Positions 4,353-32,286 of a stretch of DNA of 33,186 nucleotides are shown here, one piece after another. The notes beneath the pieces are model-generated. The model made no database searches and was not told where the DNA came from. It was given only the letters and a program-made list of their open reading frames with translations. The stretch's first letter is position 1, and every line of letters begins with the position of its first letter. A program made the translations under genes and the position numbers. Origin of the DNA: Okeania sp. SIO2C9 (GTDB lineage Bacteria > Cyanobacteriota > Cyanobacteriia > Cyanobacteriales > Microcoleaceae); assembly GCF_010672455.1 (NCBI RefSeq), contig NZ_JAAHGO010000058.1, positions 1-33,186 on the forward strand, written 5' to 3'.

Positions 4353-5495
4353 TAATTAATAATTACCGAAAAATTAACGTGGTTTCGTTAATACATAATA
4401 TTGCAGAGTTTAGAATTAAATAGCCCTGCTTAAAAGGAGAGACTTTAGACCTTGATTATTCCCTAAACAAGTAATGATAAGTATTAATAAATAGGGAACT
4501 TATCTCTTATGAAGGTTTCAGGAATCAAGAATAGGGAATATCGGAGTCACCGAATAGTTATGATATCCTGACTATTTTAGGGCTACTAAAAAAATATACT
4601 CTCTTGATTTTATAACAATTCTCTATATAGCAATTCCTATAATGCTTATACCAATTTGATAAATGTTTGCGACAAATAGCCAGGTTATTTATTATAATTT
4701 CCTAGGTCAGCTCCGCAAACAGAATTTCCGTTTTTCACCGCGAAGCAAACAGAATTCAAGAGTCGTATGGGAATAGATTTAATTCCAGTTTTTAGGTCGG
4801 AAATTCTCTTTTTCTCTTGGTACGCGTTCCGCAAGGGAACTGGCGTCGTCGCGGGGTCGCACCGCTTTGTCAAAGCGACATTTCCTAAAAAATTTTTTTA
4901 TTGCACTTATTATTAGTAACATTCTTTTTTCACGCTTGGTATTAGATACAAAATTCTAGGTTTTAGGGAACAGGGAATAGGGAGTAAAAATAGAAGTTTA
5001 TCTCATGCTTACTGAGAAACGCTATAAAGTCCAGCTTGATATTTAAAATAAATAATGCCAAATCTAATTCATATTGGCTATATATCTAAAAAAAAGCGGT
5101 ATCTGTAATACCATCTTTAAAAAGTAATGCTATATTTTATAGCTGGGAAAAATAACTACAGTTACTGAATATCAAGTATTTACTCTAGCAAATAAAATTG
5201 TATAGCAAGACTTTTGAGAATTAGTATAAGGGTGGGAAGTTAAAAAAATTATCAAAATATTTACTATTTAGATATAAGTTTCAAAGTATTGATCAACTAT
5301 TCTGAATCTCAGCACCCTATTCTTACACAGAGCTGTTAATTATAAATATTCTGTTACTATAATTTTCTCAAGTTTTGTCTTTTCAGCTTTATAATAATAG
5401 CTAGATTAAGATATTTTCTTGAACTGCCAGAGTCAAGGTAGTCCTTGAAAAACCTTTATATAGCAGAATAAAGAAGGAAGAAGGAAAAATTTTAC
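4353..5495. other. intergenic, no gene; cluster of short GC-rich dyads at about 4700-4880
   Basis: No protein gene is seen in 1.1 kb. The block at about 4700-4880 stands out by base composition. It packs short GC-rich palindromic pieces (GCTCCGCAAACAG, TTTTTCACCGCG, GTACGCGTTCCGCAAGGGAA, GTCGCGGGGTCGCACC). The last of these recurs in reverse near 8511-8530 (GGTGCGACCCCGCG). A GGGAACAGGGAATAGGGAG heptad run lies at about 4967-4985. Confidence 0.6.
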
Positions 5496-5783
5496 CGAAT
5501 AATTAATAATTAATAATTAATAATTAATAATTAAATAATTCACGCCTTGAAGCCGACCCTTTTAAGAGGAAAAAAGCGGTCGTTTGCTTCGCAACGCTGA
5601 CGCGAAACGCGACAGCGGAACGGAGTTCTTTCTTCGGAGCTTCCCGTAGGGTGGGATGGCGAGGTCTCCTCGCTGGCCAACCATCGACTAAGAGAAGAAA
5701 TAATATTTCCTTATATTCAATTCCGTAACGGTTAAAACCAGAGGTAATTATCAATTATCCATTATCAATTATCAATTAATGAA
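5496..5783 (+). mobile_element. TTAC-associated palindromic element A3
   Basis: TTTAC at 5491-5495 precedes CGAATAATTAATAATT, followed by about five heptad copies. The left hairpin region is CCGACCCTTTTAAGAGG, preceded by GAAG where other copies have AAAG. The centre carries the same GCGGTCG insert with nested dyads as A2, plus GGCGAGGTCTCCTCGC. The right region has CAAT before CCGTAACGG and ends ATTAATGAA at 5783. No coding capacity. Confidence 0.75.
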
Positions 5784-5966: not shown

Positions 5967-7022
5967 ATGAATTTTGGTCAATGGTTAGGCTTTTTTAGTT
6001 TACTTATTTCCCTATATATCCTTTGGGAAATTAGACAACTAGTACTATTAGTATTTGCTGCAATAGTTCTGGCAACTGCTTTAAATAGATTGGTGCAAAA
6101 ATTCAATAGATGGGGTATTAAAAGAAACTTAGCTGTAATTGTCACTCTGAGTTTAGCCACATTAATTATTCTGCTATTTTTGTTGCTAATTGTACCGCCT
6201 TTTACTACCCAGTTTCAAAAATTACTTGCCTTAATACCTGATGTCTTTACAGAAGTTCGTTCTCAACTTGTACAACTATATAAACAACAACCTGATTTAT
6301 TTCCTCCTCCACCTAGTGCAACTGATATGCTTGTACAAACACAATTATTAAGTACTCAGTTATTTAGCAACTTTTTTAAGATTTTTTCTAATACTTTTAT
6401 AGTCTTCTTGCAGGTACTTTTAGTGTTTGTATTAACAATAATGTTTTTAACTAATGCTCAAGCTTATCGACAAGTAGGATTACTTTTGTTTCCTTCCTTT
6501 TATCGACGACGTGCAGATGAAATTCTATCAAAGTGCGAGGTAGCTCTAGGAAATTGGTTTGGTGGAATAGTAATTAATTCTCTTTTTGTTAGTACCCTTA
6601 GTGGTCTTGGTTTATGGGTATTGCAAATTGATTTAGTTTTGGCTCACGCTTTATTGGCAGGTTTACTCAATTTTATTCCTAATATTGGTCCGACTACGAG
6701 TGTAGTTTTTCCTATTATGATTGCTCTATTAGATGCTCCTTGGAAAATAGTTGCCGTAGGAATTTTATATCTTATTATTCAGAATCTTGAAAGTTATTGG
6801 TTAAGCCCAATTGTTATGGCAAAACAAGTCTCTCTTTTACCTGCTGTTACTCTAGCATCTCAAATTTTCTTCACTACATTTTTTGGGATTTTAGGTCTAA
6901 TTTTAGCTTTACCTTTAACAGTAGTAGCTAAAACTTGGATAGAGGAAACATTATTTAAAGATATTTTAGACCCTTGGCAAAATTCTTTATCCCCTGAGAC
7001 AATTTCCACAGTCGATCGTTAA
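5967..7022 (+). CDS. AI-2E family (PerM/YhhT-type) membrane permease
   Basis: This 351-residue polytopic protein shows the family layout. Two or three N-terminal membrane segments (to about residue 80) precede a soluble stretch rich in Gln, Leu and Pro (about 85-130). C-terminal membrane segments follow, with the conserved NFIPNIGP motif near 238-245 and a glycine-rich GILGLILALPL segment near 315-325. Members transport small molecules or ions; the name comes from the E. coli AI-2 exporter, and the substrate here is unknown. The ATG at 5967 is the start used. The stop TAA is formed at the exact border with the downstream tandem repeat, so the last residues may have been altered by that repeat. 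Confidence 0.9.
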   Translation: MNFGQWLGFFSLLISLYILWEIRQLVLLVFAAIVLATALNRLVQKFNRWGIKRNLAVIVTLSLATLIILLFLLLIVPPFTTQFQKLLALIPDVFTEVRSQLVQLYKQQPDLFPPPPSATDMLVQTQLLSTQLFSNFFKIFSNTFIVFLQVLLVFVLTIMFLTNAQAYRQVGLLLFPSFYRRRADEILSKCEVALGNWFGGIVINSLFVSTLSGLGLWVLQIDLVLAHALLAGLLNFIPNIGPTTSVVFPIMIALLDAPWKIVAVGILYLIIQNLESYWLSPIVMAKQVSLLPAVTLASQIFFTTFFGILGLILALPLTVVAKTWIEETLFKDILDPWQNSLSPETISTVDR

Positions 7023-8486
7023 TAGACATAGCTTTGAAAAAGAGTAGACTGTTTTTGAATAATTTAGAATGCGCGAATTACCTCTCAAAAGAAAACGGAA
7101 TTGATTGACTAATCATAAAAATTTTTCTTTTTATCCTCTTAAAAGAGTCGGCTTTCAACCACAATTTTTCGGTAAAAGTAGGGAATAGGTATGGAGGGAA
7201 TAGGTAAGATGTTTTGAGATAAAAAACACGGAAAATGATTTTTTGAGTTATTACACTCTAGTTTATAGCAAATAAAGGACAAGTTTATTTTCTGGAGATT
7301 TCTAATAGACATAGCTTTGAAAAAGAGTAGACTGTTTTTGAATAATTTAGAATGCGCGAATTACCTCTCAAAAGAAAACGGAATTGATTGACTAATCATA
7401 AAAATTTTTCTTTTTATCCTCTTAAAAGAGTCGGCTTTCAACCACAATTTTTCGGTAAAAGTAGGGAATAGGTATGGAGGGAATAGGGAAAATATTTTGA
7501 GATAAAAAACATGGAAAATGATTTTTTGAGTTATTACACTCTAGTTTATAGCAAATAAAAGACAAGTTTGTTTTCTGGAGATTTCTAATAGACATAGCCG
7601 TGAAAAAGAGTAGACTGTTTTTGAATAATTTAGAATGCGCGAATTACCTCTCAAAAGAAAACGGAATTGATTGACTAATCATAAAAATTTTTCTTTTTAT
7701 CCTCTTAAAAGAGTCAACTTTCAACCACAATTTTTCGGTAAAAGTAGGGAATAGGTATGGAGGGAATAGGGAAGATGTTTTGAGATAAAAAACATGGAAA
7801 ATGATTTTTTGAGTTATTAAACTCTAGTTTATTAGGAAATAAAGGACAAGTTTATTTTCTGGAGATTTCTAATAGACATAGCTTTGAAAAAGAGTAGACT
7901 GTTTTTGAATAATTTAGAATGCGCTAATTACCTCTCCTTGAAAACGGAATTGATTGACTAATCATAAAAATTTTTCTTTTTATCCTCTTAAAAGAGTCAA
8001 CTTTCAACCACAATTTTTCGGTAAAAGTAGGGAATAGGTATGGAGGGAATAGGGAAAATATTTTGAGATAAAAAACATGGAAAATGATTTTTTGAGTTAT
8101 TACACTCTAGTTTATTAGGAAATAAAGGACAAGTTTATTTTCTGGAGATTTCTAATAGACATAGCTGTGAAAAAGAGTAGACTTTTTTTGAATAATTTAG
8201 AATGCGCGAATGCGCGAATGCGCGAATTACCTCTCCTTGAAAACGGAATTGATTGACTAATCATAAAAATTTTTCTTTTTATCCTCTTAAAAGAGTCAAC
8301 TTTCAACCACAATTTTTCGGTAAAAGTAGGGAATAGGTATGGAGGGAATAGGGAAAATATTTTGAGATAAAAAACACGGAAAATGATTTTTTGAGTTATT
8401 AAACTCTAGTTTATTAGGAAATAAAGGACAAGTTTATTTTCTGGAGATTTCTAATAGACATAGCCGTGAAAAAGAGTAGACTTTTT
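7021..8486 (+). repeat. tandem array, five units of about 283 bp plus a partial sixth
   Basis: Units start with AATAGACATAGC at 7021, 7304, 7587, 7871 and 8154, with a truncated one at 8453-8486. Periods are 283, 283, 284, 283 and 299. The last is longer because GAATGCGC is repeated twice more. Each unit contains a TTAC element copy in minus orientation (in unit 1 about 7056-7171, next to GGTAAAAGTAGGG). Units 4 and 5 share CTCTCCTTGAAAAC and TTATTAGGAAATAAAGG, unlike units 1-3, so they form a subgroup. No gene is encoded. Confidence 0.92.
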
Positions 8487-8673
8487 GCAGAAGTAGGCAA
8501 CAGGGAACAATGGTGCGACCCCGCGTCGGCGTCAGACGCAAGGGAATGCTGACCAAGAGAGGGAATGCGCACTCCTGTGATGCAACAGGAAACAGAGAAG
8601 AAAATTTCTGAAAAAAGAAACAAAAAATTATCTATATGTGTAATTTCTATTCCTATGTCTAATATTTTTTTAC

Positions 8674-8800
8674 CGAATAATTAAGGTTTAAAGCCTCTCC
8701 TTTAAAGGATAAAAAAGAAAAAATTATCCTTTTAGTCAATCCTCTTCTTTTCAAGGAGAAGTAATTATTAATTATTCATTATTCATTATTAATTGTTGAA
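8674..8800 (+). mobile_element. TTAC-associated palindromic element A4 (short form)
   Basis: TTTTAC precedes CGAATAATTAAGGTTT. AAAG sits at the foot of the left hairpin (CTCCTTTAAAGGA). CAAT sits at the foot of the right hairpin (CCTCTTC...). A tail of TTATTCA-type heptads ends TTGTTGAA at 8800. It lacks the GCGGTCG central insert of the longer copies and is close to a minimal form. Confidence 0.8.
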
Positions 8801-8942
8801 TAGTGCAGGATGGCGGAAATAACTTACCAGTTACAAAATTCTAAAACAATTACAAAGCAAAAATGCTAGACTTTCAACTTCCGGGTAGCGACAGTAGATT
8901 TATTGCGCTTAAATAATCTCATAAATTGCTCGACTTTTTTAC

Positions 8943-9063
8943 CGAATAATTAAGGTTTAAAGCCTCTCCTTTAAAGGAGAAACAATAAAAAATTTTCATG
9001 ATTAGTCAATCCTCTTCAATTCATAGAGAGGTAATAGTTAATTATTAATTATTAATTGTTGAA
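8943..9063 (+). mobile_element. TTAC-associated palindromic element A5 (minimal form)
   Basis: TTTTTTAC precedes CGAATAATTAAGG. TTTAAAG is followed by the near-perfect hairpin CTCCTTTAAAGGAG. The middle is only about 25 bp. GTCAAT is followed by CCTCTTCAATTCATAGAGAGG without a longer insert, and the tail ends TTGTTGAA at 9063. At 121 bp this is among the shortest copies and best shows the presumed ends. Its right end lies three bases from the stop codon of the small membrane protein gene. Confidence 0.8.
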
Positions 9064-9065
9064 TC

Positions 9066-9320
9066 TTACTCATCTTCTGGTTTTAGAGACCTTACAGTTT
9101 CTTGAATTGACCCTATAACAAATCCCATAATTGCACCTACTGTTGCATAAGTACGAGGTGCTTTTGCACTGCTATAACCTTTATCTATTTTTGTAAAATT
9201 ACAACATTGATAACGACTTTTACTCATTTCGGCAGCAGCTAATCCAATTACTGAACCTATCAAAGCCATCATCAAGCCAGAAAATACGACTAGCTTTAAA
9301 TTAATTGTTTTTTCTTCCAT
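9066..9320 (-). CDS. small two-helix membrane protein, hypothetical
   Basis: An 84-residue protein with two hydrophobic segments, about residues 10-30 (VVFSGLMMALIGSVIGLAAA) and 59-73 (YATVGAIMGFVIGSI), rich in small residues. They are separated by a basic loop with a Cys-Cys pair (QCCNF). A GGAGG Shine-Dalgarno lies 11 bases before the ATG at 9320, which supports it as a real gene. I do not recognise a named family. The glycine-rich helices suggest close packing or oligomerisation in a membrane, which is inference. Palindromic element A5 abuts its 3' end and it has no operon partner. Confidence 0.7.
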   Translation of the reverse strand: MEEKTINLKLVVFSGLMMALIGSVIGLAAAEMSKSRYQCCNFTKIDKGYSSAKAPRTYATVGAIMGFVIGSIQETVRSLKPEDE

Positions 9321-9377
9321 TATTAATTAACCTCCATAATTGAAATTAAAATTATTGATATATTATATGTTGTTTTT

Positions 9378-9662
9378 ATTTGAGATATAAATATAGATTG
9401 AGGTTTTTGCTTTTTTTCTCAGAAAAAAATTGCTGAATTTAGTACATTATATCCTTGTGTTTGTCACTTTTAATGCTATTTTCCCTCCTCGACCAAAAAT
9501 AAGGTCTCAACTCCCCCCTCTTTAGGTAATAAAAAAAGAATTCCGTATTTTCGTAGCCTCCCTATTACAGGAAGTACTGATAACTGATAACTGATAACTG
9601 AAGTGACTATTCTCTCCATACCTTTTTCATAGTACTTGGTTTCAACATCCCAGATAAAAACG
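9378..9662. repeat. intergenic direct repeat, first copy (empty site)
   Basis: This stretch (GAGATATAAATATAGATTGAGG onward, through GAATTCCGTATTT, CCCTATTACAGGAAGTACT and a TAACTGATAACTG run to CCCAGATAAAAA) is repeated at about 9785-10268. The second copy is interrupted by palindromic element A6 exactly where this copy reads CCTATTAC/AGG. No coding capacity in either copy. Confidence 0.8.
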
Positions 9663-9784
9663 GCATATCATAGTGTTTTTATTTGATACTAAATCCGGCG
9701 ATCAACAAAACCAATATTTATGAAGGTAAGGAAAAAAGATTAGAGAGGAAGGGCGAAAAACGTGATGCATGATAACCAGATTTT

Positions 9785-10268
9785 CTATGAGATGTAAATC
9801 TAGATTGAGGTTTTTTCTGAGAAAAAAATTGCTGAATTTAGTACCTTATATTCTTGTGTTTGCTGCTATTTAACGCTGTTTTCCCTCCTTGACCAAAAAA
9901 TCAGGTCTCAAGTCCCCCCTTTTTAGGTGATAAAAAAAAGAATTCCGTATTTCAAGTTGCCCTATTACCGAAAAATTGTGGTTTAAAGCCTCCCCTTTTA
10001 AGGGGATAATAAGCGGTCGGGGGATGGCGAGGTCTCCTCGCCATATCCAATCGACTCCTGTGAAGAAAAATTTTCATGAATTTGTCAATCCTCTTCAATT
10101 CATAGAGAGGTAATTATTCATTATTCATTATTCATTATTCATTATTCATTATTCATTATTCATTATTCATTGTTGAAAGGAGGTACTTATAACTGTTAAC
10201 TGATAACTGAAATGACTATTCCCTATTCCATTTTTCATAATACTTGGTCTCCAAATTCCAGATAAAAG
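9785..10268. repeat. intergenic direct repeat, second copy, filled by element A6
   Basis: This diverged copy of 9378-9662 runs GAGATGTAAATCTAGATTGAGG to AATTCCAGATAAAAG. It matches in order and spacing up to CCTATTAC at 9961-9968. Element A6 follows to 10177, and the alignment resumes with AGGAGGTACTTATAACTG. It lies downstream of the GUN4-domain gene. Confidence 0.8.
9969..10177 (+). mobile_element. TTAC-associated palindromic element A6
   Basis: ATTAC at 9964-9968 is followed by CGAAAAATTGTGGTTTAAAG and then the strong hairpin CCCCTTTTAAGGGG. The centre has GCGGTCG, the dyad GGCGAGGTCTCCTCGCC and ATCCAATCGAC. The right part has GTCAAT, then CCTCTTCAATTC...GAGAGG, and a tail of about seven TATTCAT heptads ending TTGTTGAA. 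Both borders are fixed by comparison with the uninterrupted copy at 9378-9662, and no target duplication is seen. Confidence 0.85.
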
Positions 10269-10952: not shown

Positions 10953-11033
10953 AATTACTCCCAAATTTTTGCTCTAAACTATTTTTTTAGTATCTAGTAG
11001 TTCCTGGTTAGGGAAAAGTGTTTATTAATGGAT

Positions 11034-11335
11034 AATGGATAATTGATAATGGATAATTGATAATTGATAATTACCTCTGGTTAAAACCGAGAGGATTGAA
11101 GATAAGAAAATATTATTTCTTCACAGGAGTCGATTGGATATGGCTCCGAGACCTCGCCATCCCACCCTTCGGGAAGCTCCGAAGAGAGAACTCCGTTCCG
11201 AGATACGCGTTTCGCGTCAGCGTTGCGTTACGCCAGTTTTGCGAAGCAAAAGCAAACGACCGCTTTTTTCCCCTTAAAATAGGAGGCTTGAAACCAGAAT
11301 TATTTAATTATTAATTATTAATTATTAATTATTCG
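11034..11335 (-). mobile_element. TTAC-associated palindromic element A7 (long form)
   Basis: Read on the minus strand, ATTAC precedes CGAATAATTAATAATT heptads. CAAG precedes the left hairpin (CCTCCTATTTTAAGGGG). A GC-rich central insert follows with several dyads (TTTTGCGAAGC, ACGCGTTTCGCG, GGAAGCTCC). CAAT precedes CCTCTCGGTTTTAACCAGAGG without a longer loop. The 3' end near 11034 is uncertain. The left end lies within the relic repeat unit at 11336-11520. Confidence 0.75.
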
Positions 11336-13565: not shown

Positions 13566-13681
13566 AAAATTTATACACTAAAATCAAATTTTGATAGGAA
13601 TTAGACAAAAACACTATATGTAGTAATAAAAAACTATAGTGCCACACTATCCATAGTTTTTATAGCTGAAAAATACTTCAA

Positions 13682-13934
13682 GAATTAAGAATGCGCGAAT
13701 TTAGAATGCGCGAATGCGCGAATTACCTCTCCTTGAAAAGAAGAGGATTGGGTTAAAAGGAATTTTTTTCTTCTCTTGGTCGATTAGATATGGCTCCGAG
13801 ACCCGCTCTTATCAGAGCCGCTCCGAATTGCGCCATCCCATCCTACGGAATGCTTTCCTTACGGAATACTATCGCAAACGCAAACGACCGCTTTTTTCTC
13901 CATGAATGGAGAGGCTTTATACCTGAAATTTTCG
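13682..13934 (-). mobile_element. TTAC-associated palindromic element A8
   Basis: On the minus strand TTTAC is followed by CGAAAATTTCAGG, then TATAAAG and the hairpin CTCCATTCATGGAG. The paired bases differ from the TTTAAA version in other copies, so the hairpin is conserved while its sequence changes. The centre has GCGGTCG and extra dyads (ACGGAATGC twice). CAAT precedes CCTCTTC...GAGAGG. The tail holds GCGCATTC repeats like those in the tandem array. The 3' end near 13682 is uncertain. Confidence 0.7.
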
Positions 13935-15430: not shown

Positions 15431-16922
15431 AGTGTACTAAAGAGTCTATGGCATCATAGTCAAATTATCAGTCATCTCTTACAAATTATCAGTTAAAAGT
15501 TAATATTTTTAACTTTGTGTCTTTGTGTGGGTAACAAGAGAAGGAGCGAGAACATTAGCCACATCATATACTTGATGATTTATTAAATATGTACCACAAT
15601 AGTTGGCCTTAATGATAATGATTCAGAAGTCTTAATTAGTCTCTATACTGAAATATTTGGTCTGCTCAACCTATGGAGTTTTTTGACCTATATTTATATT
15701 TAATGATGGCAAAGATTTACCTTTTGAAGTGAATCTAGATACTAATAAAATGTTCCGACTTAATGTAGTTAAGACGTGGATCTTAATGTTGGGATTAGCA
15801 ATTAAAATTGTGGTTTATAGAAATTATCTAATCTGGATAGGTACTATTAAAATTAGTGAATTATATATTTTTAATGTATCGCTTATACATTGTTTTTAGG
15901 TAATCTATTCATCTTAATATTATCTAATTAGTTAAGATGTAGTTCTATTTTTTTCCTATAAATAGAATTACTATTGGTATGGTAACTTTAATTATAACAT
16001 TAGGAATTTATATTAATACCAATTCTATTTAAGGCTGCACATAATTATGAATTTATTAATTTTTCATTCTTTATTTGTAGTCAACTGTGATTCAACTTTT
16101 ATTCTATAGCAACTTATTATTAATTTGGTATCAAACAGTGCAATGCTTTGATAAACTCTAGTTACATAGACCCTCATCAAACTTGAGTATAATGTCAATT
16201 CATATAAAATTTATAAAACTATTTTGAAAGTAATAAATATGAAGTTGCAGATATAAAATTAGCTCTTCATTTAAGAGGAATAGATACTAAAAAACAAGGA
16301 ATACTTGGCTCTCTTCATTGCCAATAATAAATGCAATTTTCAACAAAAAAAGCTTTGAATATTAACGTCATATTGTAGCAGAAAAATCAATAGCCACTTT
16401 TATTCAGGTTACAAACTTTAGAGCAGCTTAAAATTTTGTCTACTTATCAGGGAAGTACAGTTTTAAAAACTAGATTTTGAGCATCAACTAAAGTAAGCAG
16501 TTTAAACAAGACTATTATTTTAATAGTAAATATATATGGTTACTTTGCCGAAATCAAGCAGAGAAGATTTGTTGTAAATAGTGATAGGCTATAATATAAA
16601 GTGAATATATCATAACCCTTAACTATCCGGATATACAGCTATTTTATTTTTAGATCGGGCTTGCTAAATAAATTCCAAACCTTGACTAATCATGGTTTTG
16701 AGAATTATTAAAGCCTCAAAAAGTGTAATAAATAAGCTTTCTGTAGTATCAAATTCAATATACCGATTGAAAACAAAACAGTAAAGTAATGAAATGAAAA
16801 TGATGTAAAAACTTTACCCTATTCCTTGTTCCCTGTTCCCTAATCTAACACTTAGGAATTTTTCCGCAGATATTATAGACATAGCTATTTTTTTGTTTAT
16901 ATTATATTTATATTACCTACAG
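15431..16922. other. 1.5-kb intergenic region, no gene recognised
   Basis: No frame on either strand reads as a known protein. A short conceptual stretch near 15700-15775 (DGKDLPFEVNLDTNK) looks protein-like but is closed by stops on both sides, so it may be a relic of a lost gene. A CCTTGTTCCCTGTTCCC heptad run lies near 16820. TATAGACATAGCT at about 16875-16887 resembles the start of the tandem array unit at 7021. Confidence 0.5.
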
Positions 16923-19091
16923 ATGTTCAAACTTTTCGGTACACATCAAAATACCATTCTGAAGAATATTAAACACTGGCTAATAGAAAACCGTCGATTA
17001 TTACTAACAGCTTCAACCTCAGCAGGTATCGTCATACTTTTACGCTCATTAGGTCTTTTGCAATCTTGGGAATGGACACTTTACGATTATTTTTTTCGCT
17101 TACGTCCAACAGAACCATTAGATCCCCGTATTGTAATTGTAGGAATTGATGAATCAGATATACAAAAGTATGGCTATCCTATAAACGATCAATTAATGGC
17201 TGAAATACTACAAAAGTTACACTCACTTCAACCTCGTGCTATTGGTTTAGATATATATCGTGATTCCCCTAGAGAACCAGGCTATGAAAATTTTGTAACA
17301 GCTCTAGAAAATATTCCTAATATAATTGGTATTGAGAGAATAGGAATCAAAAATAGTTTAGGAATAAAACCACCTGCAATTTTGGCTAAAAAACAACAAA
17401 TAGGATTTAATAATATAGTAACAGATGCCGATGGAAAAATTCGTCGTGGCTTGCTCTATATGCACTTAGAAGATGGCAAATTTCGGGAAAGTTTTGCACT
17501 TAAACTGGCTTTAAATTACTTAGAAAAAGAAGGAATTGAGCCAAAAGCAGCTAATAAAGCCAACGATTTACAATTAGAACTAGCTGTATTTCACCGTTTT
17601 AAAACAAATGACGGAGCTTATGTTAGAGTTGATGCAGGTGGCTATCAATTTTTAGCAAACCCCAGAAAAATATCAGATAGTTTTCATACAGTTTCCATGA
17701 ATGATTTACTATCTGGAAAAATAACTCCACACTTATTCAAAGACCGGATAATTCTCATTGGTTATACTGCAACTAGCGTTAAAGATTTTCATAGAAATTC
17801 TTACAGTAGTCGTTTATTTAATTCTCCCAAAGAAATATCTGGAGTAGAATTACAAGCTAATTTTTTGAGTCAAATTTTGAGTTCAGCACTAGATGGTAGA
17901 GTAAACATTAAAGTTTTTTCTGAACCTATAGAATGGTTATATATTATTGCTTTTTCTTGTATAGGTGCTAACTTAAGTTGGCAATTATTATTGCCCAACA
18001 AATCAATTATCACGATATTATTTATCGGTATTAGTATTACAGGATTTTCTTATATTATCTTGATTGATGCTGGTTGGTGGTTTCCTATAATTCCCTCAAT
18101 ATTTGCTCTTAGCTGCTCTGCTATTATGATTATGTTGCATCTTGCTTACTTAAAAGAAGAATGGCAGAAATCCACAGAATTTTTACAGTCAGTTATTGAT
18201 GCAATTCCTGACCCTATATTTGTCAAAAATAAAGATCATCATCGTATTGTCCTCAATGAATCTTATGGTAAATTTATCGGATATCCTGTAGAATCTCTAC
18301 TCATAAAAACAGACTATGAATTATTTCCTCAAAATGAAGCTAATATATTTTGGCAACAAGATGAGTTAGTATTTCAAACAAGTCAACAGCAAGAAAATGA
18401 AGAATATTTTACAGATGCTCATGGAATTACTCATATAGTTGCTACTAAAAGAACTCTTCATCAAGATGCCGCAGGAAATCTATTTTTAGTAGGAGTAATT
18501 AGAGATATTACCGAACGAAAAAAAATGGAGGAAAACCTGAAGGAAACAGCAACAAAATTAAAGCTTGATAATGACAAACTCAAACTTTTAGGAGATTCTT
18601 TACATCATCAAGCTAATCACGATCCCCTCACAGGATTACCTAATCGTAAGCAATTTCATGAGCGTTTAAGTCAAGCTATTGAGTGGGCAAATGTCAATGA
18701 AAAAATGGTTGGTCTACTATTTCTAGACCTCAATGGATTTAAAGCTGTTAATGATACCCTGGGTCATAATATAGGAGACTTACTATTAAAATTAGTAGCA
18801 CAAAGATTGGAAGGGTGCTTAAGAGGAAGTGATACAGTTTCCCGACTTGGAGGTGATGAATTTACTGTGATATTACCAGGTATTCCAGGACTACTAGGAG
18901 CTTCTAGAGTGGCTGAAAAAATTCGCAATACAATCAATCAACCTTTTAATTTAGAAGATCATATTGTACCAGTGGGAACCAGTATTGGTATTAGTCTATA
19001 TCCTATTGATGGTCAAGACATTGATCAACTAATTCATCACGCTGATAGTGCTATGTACGAAGACAAGAAACAGCAGAAGAAACAACGTTAA
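16923..19091 (+). CDS. CHASE2-PAS-GGDEF diguanylate cyclase, membrane-bound
   Basis: A 722-residue sensor enzyme predicted to make cyclic di-GMP. One N-terminal membrane segment (about 28-45) leads into an extracytoplasmic CHASE2 domain (about 50-325, with RIVIVGIDESDI and the late block DRIILIGYTATSVKD). Three membrane helices follow (about 335-410), then a PAS domain (about 425-540, closing in the PAC-like VIRDITERKKMEE), a coiled linker and a GGDEF domain (about 565-720). The active-site loop is RLGGDEF. An RGSD I-site lies five residues before it, so product inhibition is expected. The ATG at 16923 is preferred over a TTG ten codons upstream. It is a single gene with long intergenic DNA on both sides. 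Confidence 0.93.
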   Translation: MFKLFGTHQNTILKNIKHWLIENRRLLLTASTSAGIVILLRSLGLLQSWEWTLYDYFFRLRPTEPLDPRIVIVGIDESDIQKYGYPINDQLMAEILQKLHSLQPRAIGLDIYRDSPREPGYENFVTALENIPNIIGIERIGIKNSLGIKPPAILAKKQQIGFNNIVTDADGKIRRGLLYMHLEDGKFRESFALKLALNYLEKEGIEPKAANKANDLQLELAVFHRFKTNDGAYVRVDAGGYQFLANPRKISDSFHTVSMNDLLSGKITPHLFKDRIILIGYTATSVKDFHRNSYSSRLFNSPKEISGVELQANFLSQILSSALDGRVNIKVFSEPIEWLYIIAFSCIGANLSWQLLLPNKSIITILFIGISITGFSYIILIDAGWWFPIIPSIFALSCSAIMIMLHLAYLKEEWQKSTEFLQSVIDAIPDPIFVKNKDHHRIVLNESYGKFIGYPVESLLIKTDYELFPQNEANIFWQQDELVFQTSQQQENEEYFTDAHGITHIVATKRTLHQDAAGNLFLVGVIRDITERKKMEENLKETATKLKLDNDKLKLLGDSLHHQANHDPLTGLPNRKQFHERLSQAIEWANVNEKMVGLLFLDLNGFKAVNDTLGHNIGDLLLKLVAQRLEGCLRGSDTVSRLGGDEFTVILPGIPGLLGASRVAEKIRNTINQPFNLEDHIVPVGTSIGISLYPIDGQDIDQLIHHADSAMYEDKKQQKKQR

Positions 19092-21774: not shown

Positions 21775-23295
21775 CATAAAAATATAGTCAAATATGACAT
21801 ATCCTTATTTTGCAGGTGTTACCCTGACTGGGTGAACTACAACACCACGCCAGTTGCTTCAAGTCGGGGAACCCGCAAGGGCGCACTGGCTTCTCTATCC
21901 CATAGTCAAAGACATTTGGGACTGCTTTTCTCATGATGTTTAGAGAAGCATTAACATCAGCATTAATTAATCCAATGCTTGCGCTGCAATACAAACCTCT
22001 CTTTACTCTTTTTCCTGAAAAGGTTACATGATTTTTCTCTCCTTCAGTGTACACTGGAATCAAATCATTATCTATAAAACTTGCTTTTGAGGTATAAGAT
22101 TCTTCTGTAATAATTACATCTATCCCTACCATCTTGGCTTTATAAGATAACATTTCTATTAACTTGTTATAGGGAACAGATACAAAACATGAAATATTTC
22201 TTTTCCCTAGATTTATCTTCTGCTTCCACTCTTCATTGTACCCAATTATCAAAGTTCCTATTTTCTGATTAATCAGGGTATTAATAATCAAACGAGATGC
22301 AATACGCAAGATAATCGTTGATTTTAAATTCTCTTTTATTAGAAAGCTTTTTGAGTCTCTTACTTGATTGATTTTTCCGGAGTTCAGATTGTAGGAAGCT
22401 TTTTACCTTATTATAGTATTGATTTATAGATTTTAACGGTCTGCCATTGATCAAGAGCGGTTTCATTCCGGCGCTTATTAAAGGTTAATGTAGCTAAGTT
22501 GTTTAATCCTATATCAATACTGGCGCAACGATTTTTCTCTAGCTCGTATTGTTTTTCGCATTTTTCATAAATCACCTCTATTACATAATGATTAAGTTTA
22601 GGGACGAGACGAACTTGTTTAATTTGTGAAGCAGACACTAAAGTTTTTAGATAAATCCCAGTTTTACTCAGATTAATAATTCCTTGTTTTAATTGCCTCT
22701 TGCTGATGGCTTGTGTTGTATAAACTGCAATATTTCTTCCTGTTATTTTATTTTTATATCCAGGAAGACGAGGACGAGATTTAAACTTTGATGGGTTTTG
22801 TTTATAAACTTCGTTTGCTGCTAAAAAGCTTTTCCAGTTTTTCTCTAAAATCATCAAGATTTGTTGAGATACTTTAGCTGGCATTGCTTGATAGTCTGAT
22901 TGAGTAGAGAGTGTTTTTTGCAGGTCATAATAGGATAGATTTGTATTTTCAAATATCCAAGACTGACGAACTAAATAATTAGCATAGTTATAGATATTTT
23001 TAGACAAAAAACACAGTCGGTCAATTTCAGGATAAAACCGATGATTTTTCTGAATAATATGTTTCTCAACTAATCTCATCAATCCAGGAGTTAAAATTAT
23101 ATTAGGATTCGAGCAGTTCGGAATTTTGATGACTATTTAGTCTGGAACTCTCAGCCAATTATTATACTATAATACAGATGGCCTTTGATTTATTAAATTT
23201 TGTCAAATATTTAGTAGCTCTTTTGTACAAATTAACTAAGATATTTGACATAATTTGACTATATATGACTATATTTATGTATAACTTTTATTATA
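21775..23295 (-). mobile_element. tnpB-only IS200/IS605-type element, decayed
   Basis: The extent is taken from what is shared with the deletion derivative at 13110-13565. The 3' side begins near GTTCATAAAAATATAGTC, and the 5' side ends in TTTGACTATATATGAC...AACTTTTATTATAC. It contains only tnpB and no tnpA, so even an intact copy would need a transposase in trans. Confidence 0.75.
21788..23082 (-). pseudogene. tnpB: tnpB (RNA-guided nuclease ancestor family), two frameshifts
   Basis: Three consecutive minus-strand frames join into one TnpB of about 430 residues. The first (23082 to about 22450) carries the N-terminal helical/beta region and RuvC-I ASIDIGLNNLATLTF. The second (about 22466-22300) runs GRPLKSINQYYNKVKS to NDYL. 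The third (about 22309-21788) contains RLIINTLINQKIGTLIIGYNEEWKQ with the RuvC-II Glu, TEESYTSKASF, and the RuvC-III Asp in LINADVNASLNI. This subfamily lacks the usual four-Cys ribbon. Frame breaks fall near 22455 and 22305. TnpB in intact elements is a guide-RNA-directed nuclease; this copy is presumably inactive. Confidence 0.88.
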
Positions 23296-28021: not shown

Positions 28022-28600
28022 ATGTTGAACTTGACCTACAGCTACCGAATCTATCCAAGTCTTGACCAAGAGGCACAAATGCTGGACTGGTTGGAACAAT
28101 GCCGTCGCGTCTATAACTACGCATTGGCAGAGCGCAAAGACTGGATCAACTCGCGTAAATGTCCAGTCAATGCTTGCAGTATCACCTCCGAATACATTAT
28201 CCCTGCCGACAGGCCCGATCCCGACTACTACAAACAACAGTCGCGGGATGTTGGCAAAGCATTGCTTGGATGCTGCTTGGGGTAGTTTCTTGGAAATCCT
28301 CAAATGGGTGTGCTGGAAGCGTGGAGTCTACTTCGCTAAGGTTGCTCCCAATGGGACAAGTCAGACCTGTCCTCACTGTGGAGCGGATACCGCAAAGAAA
28401 GAACTCAGTGAACGAGTGCATCATTGCGAGGAATGCGGATATGTGACGGACCGAGATGTTGCTGCTGCTCAAGTAGTCATGCAGCGAGGTCTTGTACTTG
28501 TAGCCGATGGACAGTCGGTGATACTGCCTGTGGAGGAAGGTTGCTTGGGAACCCCGATGAAGCAGGAAAAACCAACCGCAAGGAAGGTTCATCATACAAC
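28022..28600 (+). pseudogene. tnpB with a large internal deletion
   Basis: The frame opens as a TnpB N-terminus (LTYSYRIYPSLDQEAQMLDWLEQCRRVYNYALAERK) and runs to YYKQQSR at about 28248. The next bases, in another frame, are the C-terminal part: GMLAKHCLDAAWGSFLEILKW, FAKVAPNGTSQTCPHCG and YVTDRDVAAAQVVMQRGL, with the four-Cys ribbon and the RuvC-III Asp. About 200 codons with RuvC-I and RuvC-II are missing at the join. The base composition is clearly richer in GC than the surrounding genes, which suggests arrival from another genome. After the gene, AACCCCGATGAAGCAGGAAA resembles the end of a guide-RNA region. Confidence 0.85.
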
Positions 28601-28649
28601 CATTATCAAATGGATTAAAGATGCAGGTATAACATTAATTAACCGCAAT

Positions 28650-28677
28650 GTAGGGACGTTGCATGCAATGTCCCTAC
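28650..28677. repeat. 28-bp palindrome with GTTGCATGCAA core
   Basis: GTAGGGACGTTGCA is followed by its reverse complement with one mismatch (AATGTCCCTAC). The same core, GTTGCATGCAAC, forms a perfect palindrome with other arms at 29156-29179. A small interspersed dyad, not obviously a terminator. Confidence 0.75.
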
Positions 28678-28779
28678 CAGGTTGGGTAAAGGTTGTTTAT
28701 TACATTTATTTAATGAGACATGATATAAGTGATGCTTATTCTGTGTACCGTTCTTAGAAACCTATAATTATCTATATAA

Positions 28780-29310: not shown

Positions 29311-29390
29311 ATTTGACATCCTCCCCGGCCTAAAAGGCGCGGGGATTCCTACCGAACCGTAGCTCCTCGGCGGGTTGACGTTTTGCTAGC
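29311..29390 (-). ncRNA. candidate guide-RNA (omega RNA/reRNA) 3' region at the right end of the tnpB element
   Basis: Minus strand, just after the tnpB stop: GGAATCCCCGCGCC-TTTTA-GGCCGGGGAGGATG, then TCAAAT. The hairpin (CCCCGCGCC/GGCCGGGG) and the GGGGAGGATGTCAAA ending are typical of right ends in tnpB-carrying IS200/IS605 elements. Known omega RNAs overlap the tnpB 3' end and take their guide from the flanking DNA. Here that would begin TAGGAAAGATACATTGCAT (about 29310 downward). Expression is not shown by sequence alone. Confidence 0.5.
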
Positions 29391-29748
29391 GCAAAGCTCC
29401 GCTAACACAGACTGCTGCTAACTTGACGCTAGTCTTATGCTTGCCTCCACGTCCGTTTAATGTCTCGGATTGCCCACCCGCGACTAATATATTTATGGCT
29501 GCATTTATATCGCGATCATGTTTAGCACCACAGTTGAGACACTCCCATTCTCTCACTGAAAGGTCTAGTTTCCCACCTTTAAAACCACAACTAGAACAGC
29601 TTTGAGATGTTGCTTCCCAACGACTAATTACTCGAAACTCACGACCATATTTTTCTGCTTTTCCTTCTAGTAAAGTTCGGAATTGTCTCCAACCTAAATC
29701 AGAAATAGCTCTGGATAATTTACGGTTCTTGACCATTCCGGAAACGTT

Positions 29749-29769
29749 TCCTTCGGAATGCTCCGCAAA
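29749..29769 (-). repeat. 21-bp dyad inserted in frame in tnpB next to the RuvC-II motif
   Basis: Minus strand TTTGCGGAGC then ATTCCGAAGGA, coding FAEHSEG between VLEDL and NVSGMVKN. Relatives read EDLNVSGMVKNRKLS without it (recalled). It disturbs neither frame nor stop. Confidence 0.88.
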
Positions 29770-29862
29770 CAGATCCTCTAAAACAATTGTTTGGTTTTCA
29801 CGAATTATTTTAATTGATAATTTATGCAGAAAATCGGTCCGCGTATCTTTCAGTTTGGCATG

Positions 29863-29883
29863 TTTGCGTAGCATTCCGTAGGA
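29863..29883 (+). repeat. 21-bp dyad inserted in frame in tnpB, opposite orientation
   Basis: Plus strand TTTGCGTAGC then ATTCCGTAGGA. In the gene it adds seven codons (FSYGMLRK replaces one residue) between IAK and HAKLKDTR. It is 94 bases from the copy at 29749. Confidence 0.85.
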
Positions 29884-30659
29884 AAACTTAGCTATTCTCA
29901 ACCGAGCTTTTTCATACCTTTTAGAACCTTGAGTTTTATTAGATAATGACTTACTTAACTTCCTGTATTTCTTAATTCGTTTCTTTAGTGGTTTAGGAGC
30001 ATCAATTTTTGTACCATCGCTCAATGTAGCAAAAGTTTTAATCCCCAAATCTATTCCTACTGAACTATCAGTTTGAGGTAAAGTTTCGGGTTGTATTTCT
30101 ACTACAAAACTTAAGAAATATCTATTAGCTGAATCTTTGATAACTGTTACTGATGATGGAGCAGCAGGTAGCTCTCACAGGCGAAACTATCTTTAACTTC
30201 CCAATTTTAGCTAAGTAAACTTTATGCTGACCAACTTTAAAACCACCCTTTCTAAATCTAGCAGTCTGTCTTGACTTTCTAGTTTTGAATCGCGGAGGTT
30301 TAACAGCTCTACCTTTCCTCTTACCTTTGGTTGAAGTAAAGAAATTTTGATAAGCCTGGTTTAAATCATTCAAGGATTGCTGCAATGGTATATTAGAAAC
30401 TTCCGATAACCATTCTCTATCTTCAGTCTTTTTAGCAGATGTAATAAACTGTTTTTGCAGTTCTGAATTTGTCGGTTTCTTGGCTCCTATTTTGTACTGT
30501 TCTTTACAGAAAGCTAGACTATCATTCCAAACCACACGCACACAACCAAATAGCTTGGCTAATTGGTGTTTTTGTCCCGGTGTTGGATAGATACGATACT
30601 TAAATCTAGATTTCATAATCTGACGCAATAAACTAACAATATTATAACCTATTTATAGA

Positions 30660-31388
30660 GAAAAAATCAACTAAAAAGTCGCCCTATAAGGGCGAGGCTT
30701 GAGACCCAATTTTCTGGTCAGCTACCTTTGTGTGTAGTCTCGCTATTTTTAGCTGTGCTTTTTTCCAGTTAGAGCGAAAACTTGACTTGATGTCGATTCA
30801 AGTATTGCAACAAGCGAAAGTTTAGCTTCTAACTTTTTATAAGATTTAGCTCCTGGAAATACTTCACCAGTGGATAATGTAGCTAGTGATTTCACGCCCA
30901 AATCTACACCAACTACATCTACTGATTTCTCAGTAATTTGAGTTTCTTCCTCTCTAGAATTGAAACTGATAAACCATCTATCAGCTTTCTTGCTAATAGT
31001 TACAGACTTAGGAGTGACATTATCTGGCAAGATTTCAAATGTTTTCACCCATCCAATTCGAGGTAACTTTATACGATTAAAACCTACTGATATGGAACCA
31101 TCCAAAGTGTTTGCGTAGCATTCCGCAGGAAAACCATCATCCCTACCTTTGTTCTTGAATTTAGGTTGACCAGATACTTTGCTGAATCTTCGTTTGCAAG
31201 CGTCTGATAAATACCTCAAAGCATCCATACGGAGCGCACTTAGAAACTTCATAGTACCAATAGTTTAATGGTTTAACCATTGCTACTAAAAGTTTATACA
31301 GGTCGATTGCCGTCGGAAATTTAAGTTTACTATCAGGATTGTTGGAATTGTGAGTAAGGATATTTTTAGTTAACCACAAGCCCCAATT
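30660..31388 (-). pseudogene. tnpB 3' exon, truncated, downstream of the group II introns
   Basis: It continues directly from the intron end: NWGLWLTKNILTHN, FPTAIDLYKLLVAMVK and YYEVSKCAPYG, then after a frame change (about 31225) ALRYLSDACKRRFSK, SGQPKFKNKGRDDGF, TLDGSISVGFNRIKLPRIG and RuvC-I VDVVGVDLGVKSLATLSTG to KLEAKLS. After another frame change NWKKAQLKIARLHTKVAD is still visible near 30770-30720. The gene then stops, and the RuvC-II, ribbon and RuvC-III parts are missing. CGCCCT-ATA-AGGGCG at about 30676-30692 may be its right-end hairpin. A 21-bp dyad sits at 31110-31130. The 5' exon is outside the window. Confidence 0.82.
31110..31130 (+). repeat. 21-bp dyad inserted in frame in the third tnpB
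   Basis: Plus strand TTTGCGTAGC then ATTCCGCAGGA. In the gene it codes PAECYAN between GRDDGF and TLDGSIS, and the reading frame continues undisturbed. Confidence 0.88.
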
Positions 31389-32286
31389 GTTACAGTCGAT
31401 GGGGATATCGCTATCCCTCACCTCTGCTTCACGCGCCGTGCTTGAGAGTTTCCAACTCACACGGCTCCTCAATATATAGGTAGTATGTTTTCTTTCTAGT
31501 TTCTTTACTAACCATCCGTTCTTCCCAATAATATCGGGTTTGAGACTTTTGATGGGAGGTGCATTTAGGTTGTTAACCATCGACTTCTTATTTATAGTGG
31601 GCACGGCTTCCACTTCACAACCTCGCTACACATCCAAGTTTTGTCACCCCTTGAGGCATGATTTTCTTTACTCCAACCTATACATTGTCCTCACGTCAGC
31701 CTATCCTGAACATTACTCCAGGCTTGCTTCTTGAAGAATCCTCCACCCTAATCAGCATTGGCGCGCGCTTTCCCTACTCTTGTGTTTCTGTACTCAAGGT
31801 CGAATTTTTGTACATCGGCTTTTTTTTATAGTGGCTACGAATACCACTTATGAGAGCTGATCAGGGGTTACTTCGTTCCCTGATATCATTTCATGTTGAC
31901 CGTAGGTCTTCTAGTATAGGCCGACCTCTAATTAGATACGAGACCAACGCTTACTAATTAGTCCCAATTTGACGAGGCGTACCATTTTGGTCTAGGGGTA
32001 ACAATGCCTTTCCCCTATTCCGTCTCACGACCCATTTTACTAGATTCTCTGTACGATAGCCATAGTCAACTACCCTAGCAGAAGATCGAGTACAGCATTA
32101 CCCTTATTCCGCTTTTAGCCCATGCACTGAGAGACAGACTTGCACTTTGTCTGAATCCTGGGACTATGGAGTCATACGGTATCCGCGTAGGAAGGAATTT
32201 AACCTCCATGAATATCAGAGTTACCCTGGGTTCGAGGGCTGGCTGAACGTAGCCACTAAAGACTACTTAGGCCAAACGAGTCGCAC
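31389..32286 (-). ncRNA. group II intron (ORF-less), downstream copy
   Basis: Read on the minus strand the 898-nt unit starts GTGCGACTCG (group II 5' consensus GTGYG) and ends ...CGACTGTAAC (terminal AY). Domain V is at 31435-31467: GAGCCGTG...CACGGC with the AGC triad, a GGAA-like loop and an AG bulge. Domain VI follows with GGGATA-GCGA-TATCCC, and an unpaired A eight bases from the 3' end (31396) is the likely branch point. No reverse transcriptase is encoded and the short frames inside are not genes, so splicing needs a maturase in trans. The 3' exon is tnpB, entered between codons before NWGLW. Confidence 0.88.

Follow-up and report, generated by a model that had tools for sequence, protein, structure and literature searches.

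The window analysed here (33,186 nucleotides of Okeania sp. SIO2C9, part of contig C272 in a genome of 10.88 Mb and 317 contigs) harbours dispersed, short palindromic elements that, with a probability we put at roughly 85%, are IS608-like non-autonomous single-strand elements of the IS200/IS605 type. This assignment is drawn from their borders, a target retained without duplication, the feet of their hairpins, a covariation between guide base 1 and cleavage site base 2, and the left end of a related autonomous element. They would belong to the kind called PATEs in haloarchaea. In the mechanism proposed, an HUH (Y1) transposase supplied in trans by another element would excise them as single-stranded DNA and insert them 3' of a tetranucleotide, the left hairpin foot AAAG pairing with target TTAC and the right foot CAAT with the right cleavage site TGAA. 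As specificity resides in the element's own DNA, guide and site could drift together under an unchanged transposase. On the left, AAAG/TTAC could turn into CAAG/TGAC or GAAG/TCAC; on the right, GAAT/TCAA could give rise to CAAT/TGAA in family A and to CAAG/TGAC in family B. Among hundreds of gene-less elements of a large cyanobacterial genome, the guide appears to have changed naturally in step with the landing site.

A preliminary description of the window had already proposed IS608-like elements mobilised in trans. The core of that reading was retained, while the spacing of the right end, guide base 4 and the search for a suitable TnpA in the genome itself did not conform to it.

Elements of the window and their abundance

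Elements A1, A2 and A10 shared the layout TTAC^CGAA..AAAG-hairpin..CAAT-hairpin..TTGTTGAA^ (^, element border; Table 1), in exact agreement with the preliminary description, whose dispersed TTAC-flanked palindromic elements proved real. Its inventory, A1 to A10 plus copies nested in a tandem array, was recovered in part: motif TTACCGAA occurred at 14 places of the window, 7 per strand, 11 of which displayed a left linker and hairpin by eye, and a profile scan added left ends at 2123, 2327, 4457 and 23934, but not every earlier label could be assigned to a copy. Among the remaining places, 18508 lies within an ORF (16893-19091) and is not an element, and 1858 and 4363 were discarded as devoid, by eye, of the usual foot and hairpin. 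The claim that most copies end in TGAA held for A1, A2 and A10 and failed for the tandem-array copies, which end otherwise. At gathering thresholds, Rfam gave no match over the whole window.

Each unit of the tandem array consists of an A-type element plus flank. Similar element-plus-flank triplets occurred in the same genome (G000, C24:155.9-156.3 kb) and in genome G004 (C66:205.1-205.8 kb); in G000, the ortholog of the G004 triplet is single.

Table 1. Coordinates of A-type, family-B and IS605-type features in the window (^, element border)
Feature	Positions	Strand	Remarks
Retained target TTAC	8670-8673	+	Left border of A1
Element A1	8674-8800	+	TTAC^CGAATAATTAAGGTTT-AAAG-CC-hairpin ... GTCAAT-hairpin-heptamers-TTGTTGAA^
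Element A2	8943-9063	+	Layout as A1
Element A10	9969-10177	+	Inserted into family-B element
Tandem array	7020-8486	-	283-base units, about 5, each with minus-strand A-type copy TTAC^CGAAAAATTGTGGTTGAAAG...
A-type copy	5496-5780	+	TAATTAA heptamers in left linker; TTAC 5492-5495; right end approximate
A-type copy	11026-11335	-	Left-heptamer class; TTAC 11339-11336; right end approximate
A-type copy	13680-13934	-	TTAC 13938-13935; foot ATAAAGCC; right end approximate
TTACCGAA with linker and hairpin	5492, 8670, 8939, 9965	+	By eye
TTACCGAA with linker and hairpin	13938, 11339, 8323, 8024, 7741, 7458, 7175	-	By eye; the last five inside the tandem array
Family-B element	9494-9607	+	Flank CGAC^CAAA...; TAACTGA heptamer tail; end CTGAAGTGAC^; empty-site comparison for A10
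Family-B element	9894-10216	+	TGAC target, CAAG guide; split by A10; end CTGAAATGAC^
tnpB-only IS605-type element (window IS)	29313-30716	-	Left TGAC^CAGAAAATTGGGTCT-CAAG-hairpin; right GAAT-hairpin-AGGATGTCAA^

The elements, 113-370 bases long among those listed, were far from confined to the window. Compared with 107 named loci, the DNA collected from this genome matched best Okeania hirsuta (92% over 2.0 kb), Hydrocoleum (86% over 0.8 kb) and a Microcoleaceae record (88% over 0.7 kb), in line with a source close to Okeania. A search of the genome with A2 gave at least 46 listed matches (40 of 1368 first-look candidates were scored). A left-end pattern occurred 525 times in this genome and 559, 388, 238 and 482 times in the four congeneric genomes; in three members of a second genus of the same family, it occurred 315-395 times. 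Reversed as a chance control, the pattern gave no match in the five genus genomes and one in total across the 59 genomes searched; against 238-559 real matches per genus genome, the left ends are not due to chance.

Left borders and empty sites

Borders were examined in 1.6 Mb of the same genome (C24:1-800000, C223:1-400000 and C285:1-400000) with a profile of the element interior from which TTAC had been left out. It gave 245 matches, 147 of which spanned the whole core with enough flank, and the border tetramer was TTAC in 93 of them. A wider left-end profile, run on the 1.6 Mb plus the window and kept up to E = 50, so that some matches are due to chance, yielded 231 left ends after removal of duplicate flanks. 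Apart from a left-heptamer class (26 members), the 205 others were preceded by TTAC in 137 cases (0.6% expected from base composition), TGAC in 18, TCAC in 3 and TAAC in 2. The TTAC border initially described was recovered by both profiles, although neither contained it.

TAAT stood in place of TTAC in 18 of the 147 full-core copies. These are members of the left-heptamer class, whose left linker contains TAATTAA heptamers; farther upstream, a TTAC preceding CGAA, CAAA or TGAA was seen in 18 of its 26 members by eye, and in only 9 of 26 under a stricter scripted pattern. Exceptions to the IS608 rule were also found at the foot, which was TGCG or TGTG in 29 and AAAT in 7 of the 137 TTAC copies; under that rule, such feet should not read TTAC. 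Yet, the TGCG-foot copy e120 displayed a clean empty site with TTAC, so copies with this foot do insert there. The AAAT-foot and GTATGCG-foot subfamilies may read TTAC otherwise, for instance through antiparallel GGTAA:TTACC.

Empty sites were searched by joining the flanks of 198 two-ended elements and comparing them with the collected DNA. A junction-spanning match was obtained for 53, of which 20 passed a filter (gap-free within 15 bases and 60% identical on either side) as gapless empty sites. The subject tetramer was TTAC in 9, TTAT in 4, TTCC in 2, and CGAC, TCAC, TTAG, CTAC and CTAT in one each. The best were C24:573763 against G002, identical over 30/30 bases on both sides, and C24:576978 against G001; e6, e20 and e132 are weak sites on repeat-like flanks, and e129 and e130 represent one site. 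Since this filter would itself hide duplications, all 53 matches were inspected. Within 8 bases of the junction, 22 had no gap, 18 had extra bases in the subject only and 13 in the element copy only; the last comprised left-heptamer members (5), decayed borders, element-in-element or truncated copies and repeat gaps of 1-4 bases, and by eye none contained a target copy. The absence of target duplication, first remarked in the window, was confirmed in that no duplicated target occurred among the 53 junction matches. Likewise, A10 interrupts a family-B copy whose paralogue, CCCTATTAC^AGGAAGTAC, is uninterrupted at 9560-9577, TTAC being kept. Insertion 3' of a short target, retained on the left and not duplicated, is typical of IS200/IS605 elements.

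Covariation of guides and targets

IS608 uses TTAC (CL) with AAAG (GL) on the left and TCAA (CR) with GAAT (GR) on the right, A+16 pairing with T-3 and A+17 with T-4 (PMC5934647). Following the A+16/T-3 scheme, guide base 1 was set against site base 2; the correspondence between guide base 4 and site base 4 was derived from the two published IS608 pairs. An initial regular-expression search for NAAG feet was overwhelmed by chance matches and gave way to the profile scans described above. In the five genomes of the genus, TTAC copies (n = 964) displayed AAAG in 942 cases, CAAG in 11, GAAG in 9 and TAAG in 2. Among TGAC copies (n = 40), AAAG was found in 28, CAAG in 8, GAAG in 3 and TAAG in 1; TCAC copies (n = 17) had GAAG in 11, AAAG in 5 and TAAG in 1, and TAAC copies (n = 11) AAAG in 10 and CAAG in 1.

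Both matched combinations were enriched (Fisher, raw counts: TCAC/GAAG, p = 1e-16; TGAC/CAAG, p = 2e-7), also after tandem and presumed orthologous copies had been collapsed by eye (5/11, p = 1e-7, and 5/37, p = 2e-4, respectively). Orthology of one TCAC/GAAG locus was shown by empty-site matches. Left flanks, compared for 30 of 68 loci, distinguished five TCAC/GAAG loci and four TGAC/CAAG loci, the latter including two that had been merged, which makes the collapsed TGAC/CAAG figure conservative. The pairing rule was followed in both directions, GAAG occurring 11 times at TCAC vs 3 at TGAC and CAAG 8 times at TGAC vs none at TCAC (Fisher, p = 0.001 raw, 0.028 collapsed). In the genome of the window itself (1.6 Mb plus window, counting family B and the window IS), guide base C was present in 8/18 TGAC vs 2/137 TTAC left ends (p = 3e-7).

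The covariation anticipated in the preliminary description was found on the left between guide base 1 and cleavage base 2, as a statistical tendency to which TGCG and TGTG feet are exceptions; two subfamilies depart from the rule. It did not extend to base 4 within the family, since TTAT/AAAA (1/19) and TTAG/AAAC (1/17) showed none and 201 copies carried AAAH feet at TTAC. Base-4 pairing did fit between IS elements and between the right ends of families A, B and the IS, in contrast to its absence within family A. At the IS level, left pairs were TTAC/AAAG in L238, L235 (see below) and six further IS-type left ends of the 1.6 Mb (left ends only, genes unread), TGAC/CAAG in the window IS and TTAT/AAAA in L207 and L211/L212. 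Right pairs were GAAT/TCAA in the IS, CAAT/TGAA in family A and CAAG/TGAC in family B.

For IS608, guide-directed target choice was elucidated on a single element before being engineered. The hundreds of copies carried by the five related genomes constitute a natural experiment on the guide code, with three natural guide/cleavage pairs at the right ends; covariation of target and guide at one position, but not at another, is informative about the strictness of the code in vivo.

Genus-wide, antiparallel pairing is possible between GGT(x) of the left linker and the target together with the first base (TTACC:GGTAA, TGACC:GGTC), most completely in the AAAT-foot class, and a small extra stem of this type was visible in three single-strand folds. 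A second guide, in which the base following GGT would read target base 2, was considered (C in 11/15 TGAC vs 6/90 TTAC copies); being confounded with the family-B lineage, it is not claimed here.

Hairpins, right extremities and heptamer arrays

Hairpins were subterminal at both ends and terminal inverted repeats were absent, as in non-autonomous members of IS200/IS605. In the left stem, 85% of cells pair, vs 34-66% when slid by 1-3 bases, although this is only slightly better than with shuffled partners (80%, maximum 82%). Fold energy was not below that of shuffles for left ends (z = -0.2 and -0.3) and was below it for right ends (z = -2.1 and -2.8); for A2 as single-stranded DNA, the values were -0.2 and -2.1, respectively.

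Of 208 right modules, 178 reached TGAA within 130 bases, 150 of them with a CAAT foot; among the 28 with other feet, 15 look like antisense matches of the same hairpin. The distance from hairpin to TGAA equalled 4 modulo 7 in 118 of the 178 copies, with peaks at 25, 32, 39 and 46 bases. The right end departs from IS608 in this long spacing, mostly 25-46 bases vs 10 in the related IS, and in its variation by steps of 7, which is not met in the parts of the IS608 account considered here (PMC5934647). Heptamers probably change after insertion, since e37, e70 and e97, whose flanks match in three genomes, have tails differing by one heptamer each (their interiors differ as well). At least 7 of the 11 period-7 arrays listed for the window sit in ends of these elements.

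Family B starts with TGAC^CAAA or TTAC^CAAA, has a CAAG, AAAG or TGTG foot and a TAACTGA tail, and ends in CTGAAATGAC. Its tails lie at 9576-9607 and 10186-10216 of the window. A loose right-end pattern gave 70 matches, 34 with a recognisable foot and 36 without. TGAC ends with a foot (n = 25) displayed CAAG in 13, AAAG in 1 and others in 11; CAAG was also found at 2/5 TAAC and 1/4 TTAC ends, three cases against the pairing rule.

TAACTGA repeats, the same heptamer as the family-B tail, were previously reported without explanation (PMC4679880). An AATGAC-like end followed 17/42 arrays in Microcoleaceae records vs 4/79 elsewhere (two in Microcystis, one in Calothrix and one in Anabaena), which ties the transposon context chiefly to this lineage. 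The family was rejected as source of the Beggiatoaceae arrays, 0/7 arrays in Candidatus records (mostly Parabeggiatoa) having an AATGAC-like end.

One might tentatively go further and imagine a single population that retargets by matched mutation of guide and site, with a transposase tolerating heptamer linkers of changing length from hairpin to cut; we regard this as possible but rather doubtful. If it were true, transposon ends would have generated the heptamer arrays of these genomes as by-products.

Related IS605-type elements

An A-type left end adjoining tnpA was found at two loci, L238 in the same-genus genome G003 and L235 in G001. L238 is complete, with a tnpA of 135 aa (Y1_Tnp, 121.8 bits) and a divergent tnpB of 400 aa (OrfB_IS605, Cas12f1-like TNB); in L235, tnpA is retained and tnpB broken. 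The left end of L238, TTAC^CAGAAAATTGGGTTTAAAG-CCTCCCCC.. followed by the hairpin with its AAAG foot, closely resembles that of family A, whereas its right end (GAAT-hairpin-AGGATGTCAA, TCAA cut, 10-base spacing) and its tnpA and tnpB genes distinguish it. Since an IS605-type element of the same genus shares the left end and displays GAAT/TCAA on the right, CAAT/TGAA represents a matched change. The preliminary description had suggested as much from Helicobacter pylori IS608 alone; comparison within the genus makes it stronger.

The window IS, absent from that description, is a sibling of L238 with the same GAAT/TCAA right end, the left pair TGAC/CAAG and a TnpB match split over two ORFs. It uses TGAC where its relatives use TTAC; if the TnpB adjacent motif follows the target, that of the window IS should have shifted too. 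Further broken TnpB-like ORFs lie at 21788-23082, 28062-28757 and 30749-31613. Four ORFs were run against Pfam: 21788-22309 and 28062-28757 matched Cas12f1-like TNB, 30749-31252 matched OrfB_IS605 below the curated cut-off and 22411-23082 gave no match.

We agree that the window has no tnpA. The TnpAs of L207 and L211/L212 share 63-66% identity with that of L238. The genome of the window yielded no TnpA of the L238 clade, its full-length matches being 43-45% identical and others weaker or short pieces. Likewise, no tnpA locus owning a CAAT/TGAA right end was seen, both ends being inspected for 20 loci of this genome and left ends only for 69 loci. The search for a tnpA-bearing element sharing both ends, a test put forward in the preliminary description, gave a shared left end (L238, L235), in other genomes of the genus, and no shared right end. 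We infer that the elements were mobilised in trans by an L238-type TnpA now missing from this genome assembly.

Two other candidates were discarded as partners: L220-L223 (4/5 copies of a multi-copy tnpA element of G003) showed only a loose match inside the element, and L031-L033, tnpA loci of the window's genome, had no A-type left end. At locus L034 (G000:C277), a broken Y1 gene containing two stops adjoins, on its 3' side, an A-type element of the minus strand without the usual final TTGAA; at a guess, the gene might be RAYT-like.

Alternative origins

The most serious competitor is that the elements are IS605-derived relics in which guide and target are associated through shared decay or ancestry, and not through guide-directed choice. 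The majority of copies have diverged, tandem or orthologous copies occur in the TCAC/GAAG set, and guide base 4 does not covary. Moreover, the mismatched TGAC/GAAG combination (3/40, vs 9/964 GAAG at TTAC; p = 0.01) indicates that non-TTAC flanks carry somewhat more guide changes in general, hence some decay. Yet, the enrichment obeys the pairing rule (11 vs 3 for GAAG at TCAC, 8 vs 0 for CAAG at TGAC) and the window IS again displays TGAC/CAAG, so we consider this origin unlikely.

Still less probable are REPIN- or BIME-like palindromes spread by a domesticated RAYT (TnpA_REP) instead of an IS608-type TnpA. Short, palindromic and very abundant elements would suit them, and the genome has divergent Y1_Tnp matches in long frames with low scores (L041, 194 aa, 41 bits; L044, 182 aa, 31 bits) that could, at a guess, be RAYTs. 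REPINs consist, however, of two inverted copies of one REP with a GTAG-type tag at the hairpin foot. Here, feet were mostly AAAG, TGCG or CAAT, with GTAG absent among those listed. The hairpins of the two ends are unlike each other, the target stays in place and the left ends look like those of an IS605-type element, which renders a RAYT origin highly improbable. As for classical MITEs of a DDE transposase, which combine terminal inverted repeats with target duplication, element size and number are compatible with them; the ends, CGAATAATT.. vs ..TTGTTGAA, are not inverted repeats and 0 duplicated targets among 53 junction matches already contradict this origin, to which we attach next to no probability.

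Comparison with known systems

The IS608-like, non-autonomous elements favoured here resemble IS608 of Helicobacter pylori by the TTAC kept on the left, the AAAG foot and a right cut read by the right hairpin foot (PMC5934647). They differ by the absence of genes, the CAAT/TGAA right pair, the long hairpin-to-cut spacing in 7-base steps and several alternative left feet. Among the titles and abstract openings listed in literature searches, none gave an account of this family in Okeania or Trichodesmium. The kind of element is not new, as PATEs are known from archaea and some cyanobacteria (PMC4853749); what is unusual are natural retargeting and heptamer linkers. Like the PATEs described from Haloquadratum walsbyi, where most tnpA genes are disrupted, the elements are short and transposase-free, with near-terminal palindromes, neither inverted repeats nor duplication, and ends resembling those of IS605-type elements (PMC3119063). 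Guide/target pairs, traced here, and heptamer arrays in linkers set them apart from PATEs. So does copy number, with 525 left ends vs 177-194 PATEs in H. walsbyi (PMC3119063).
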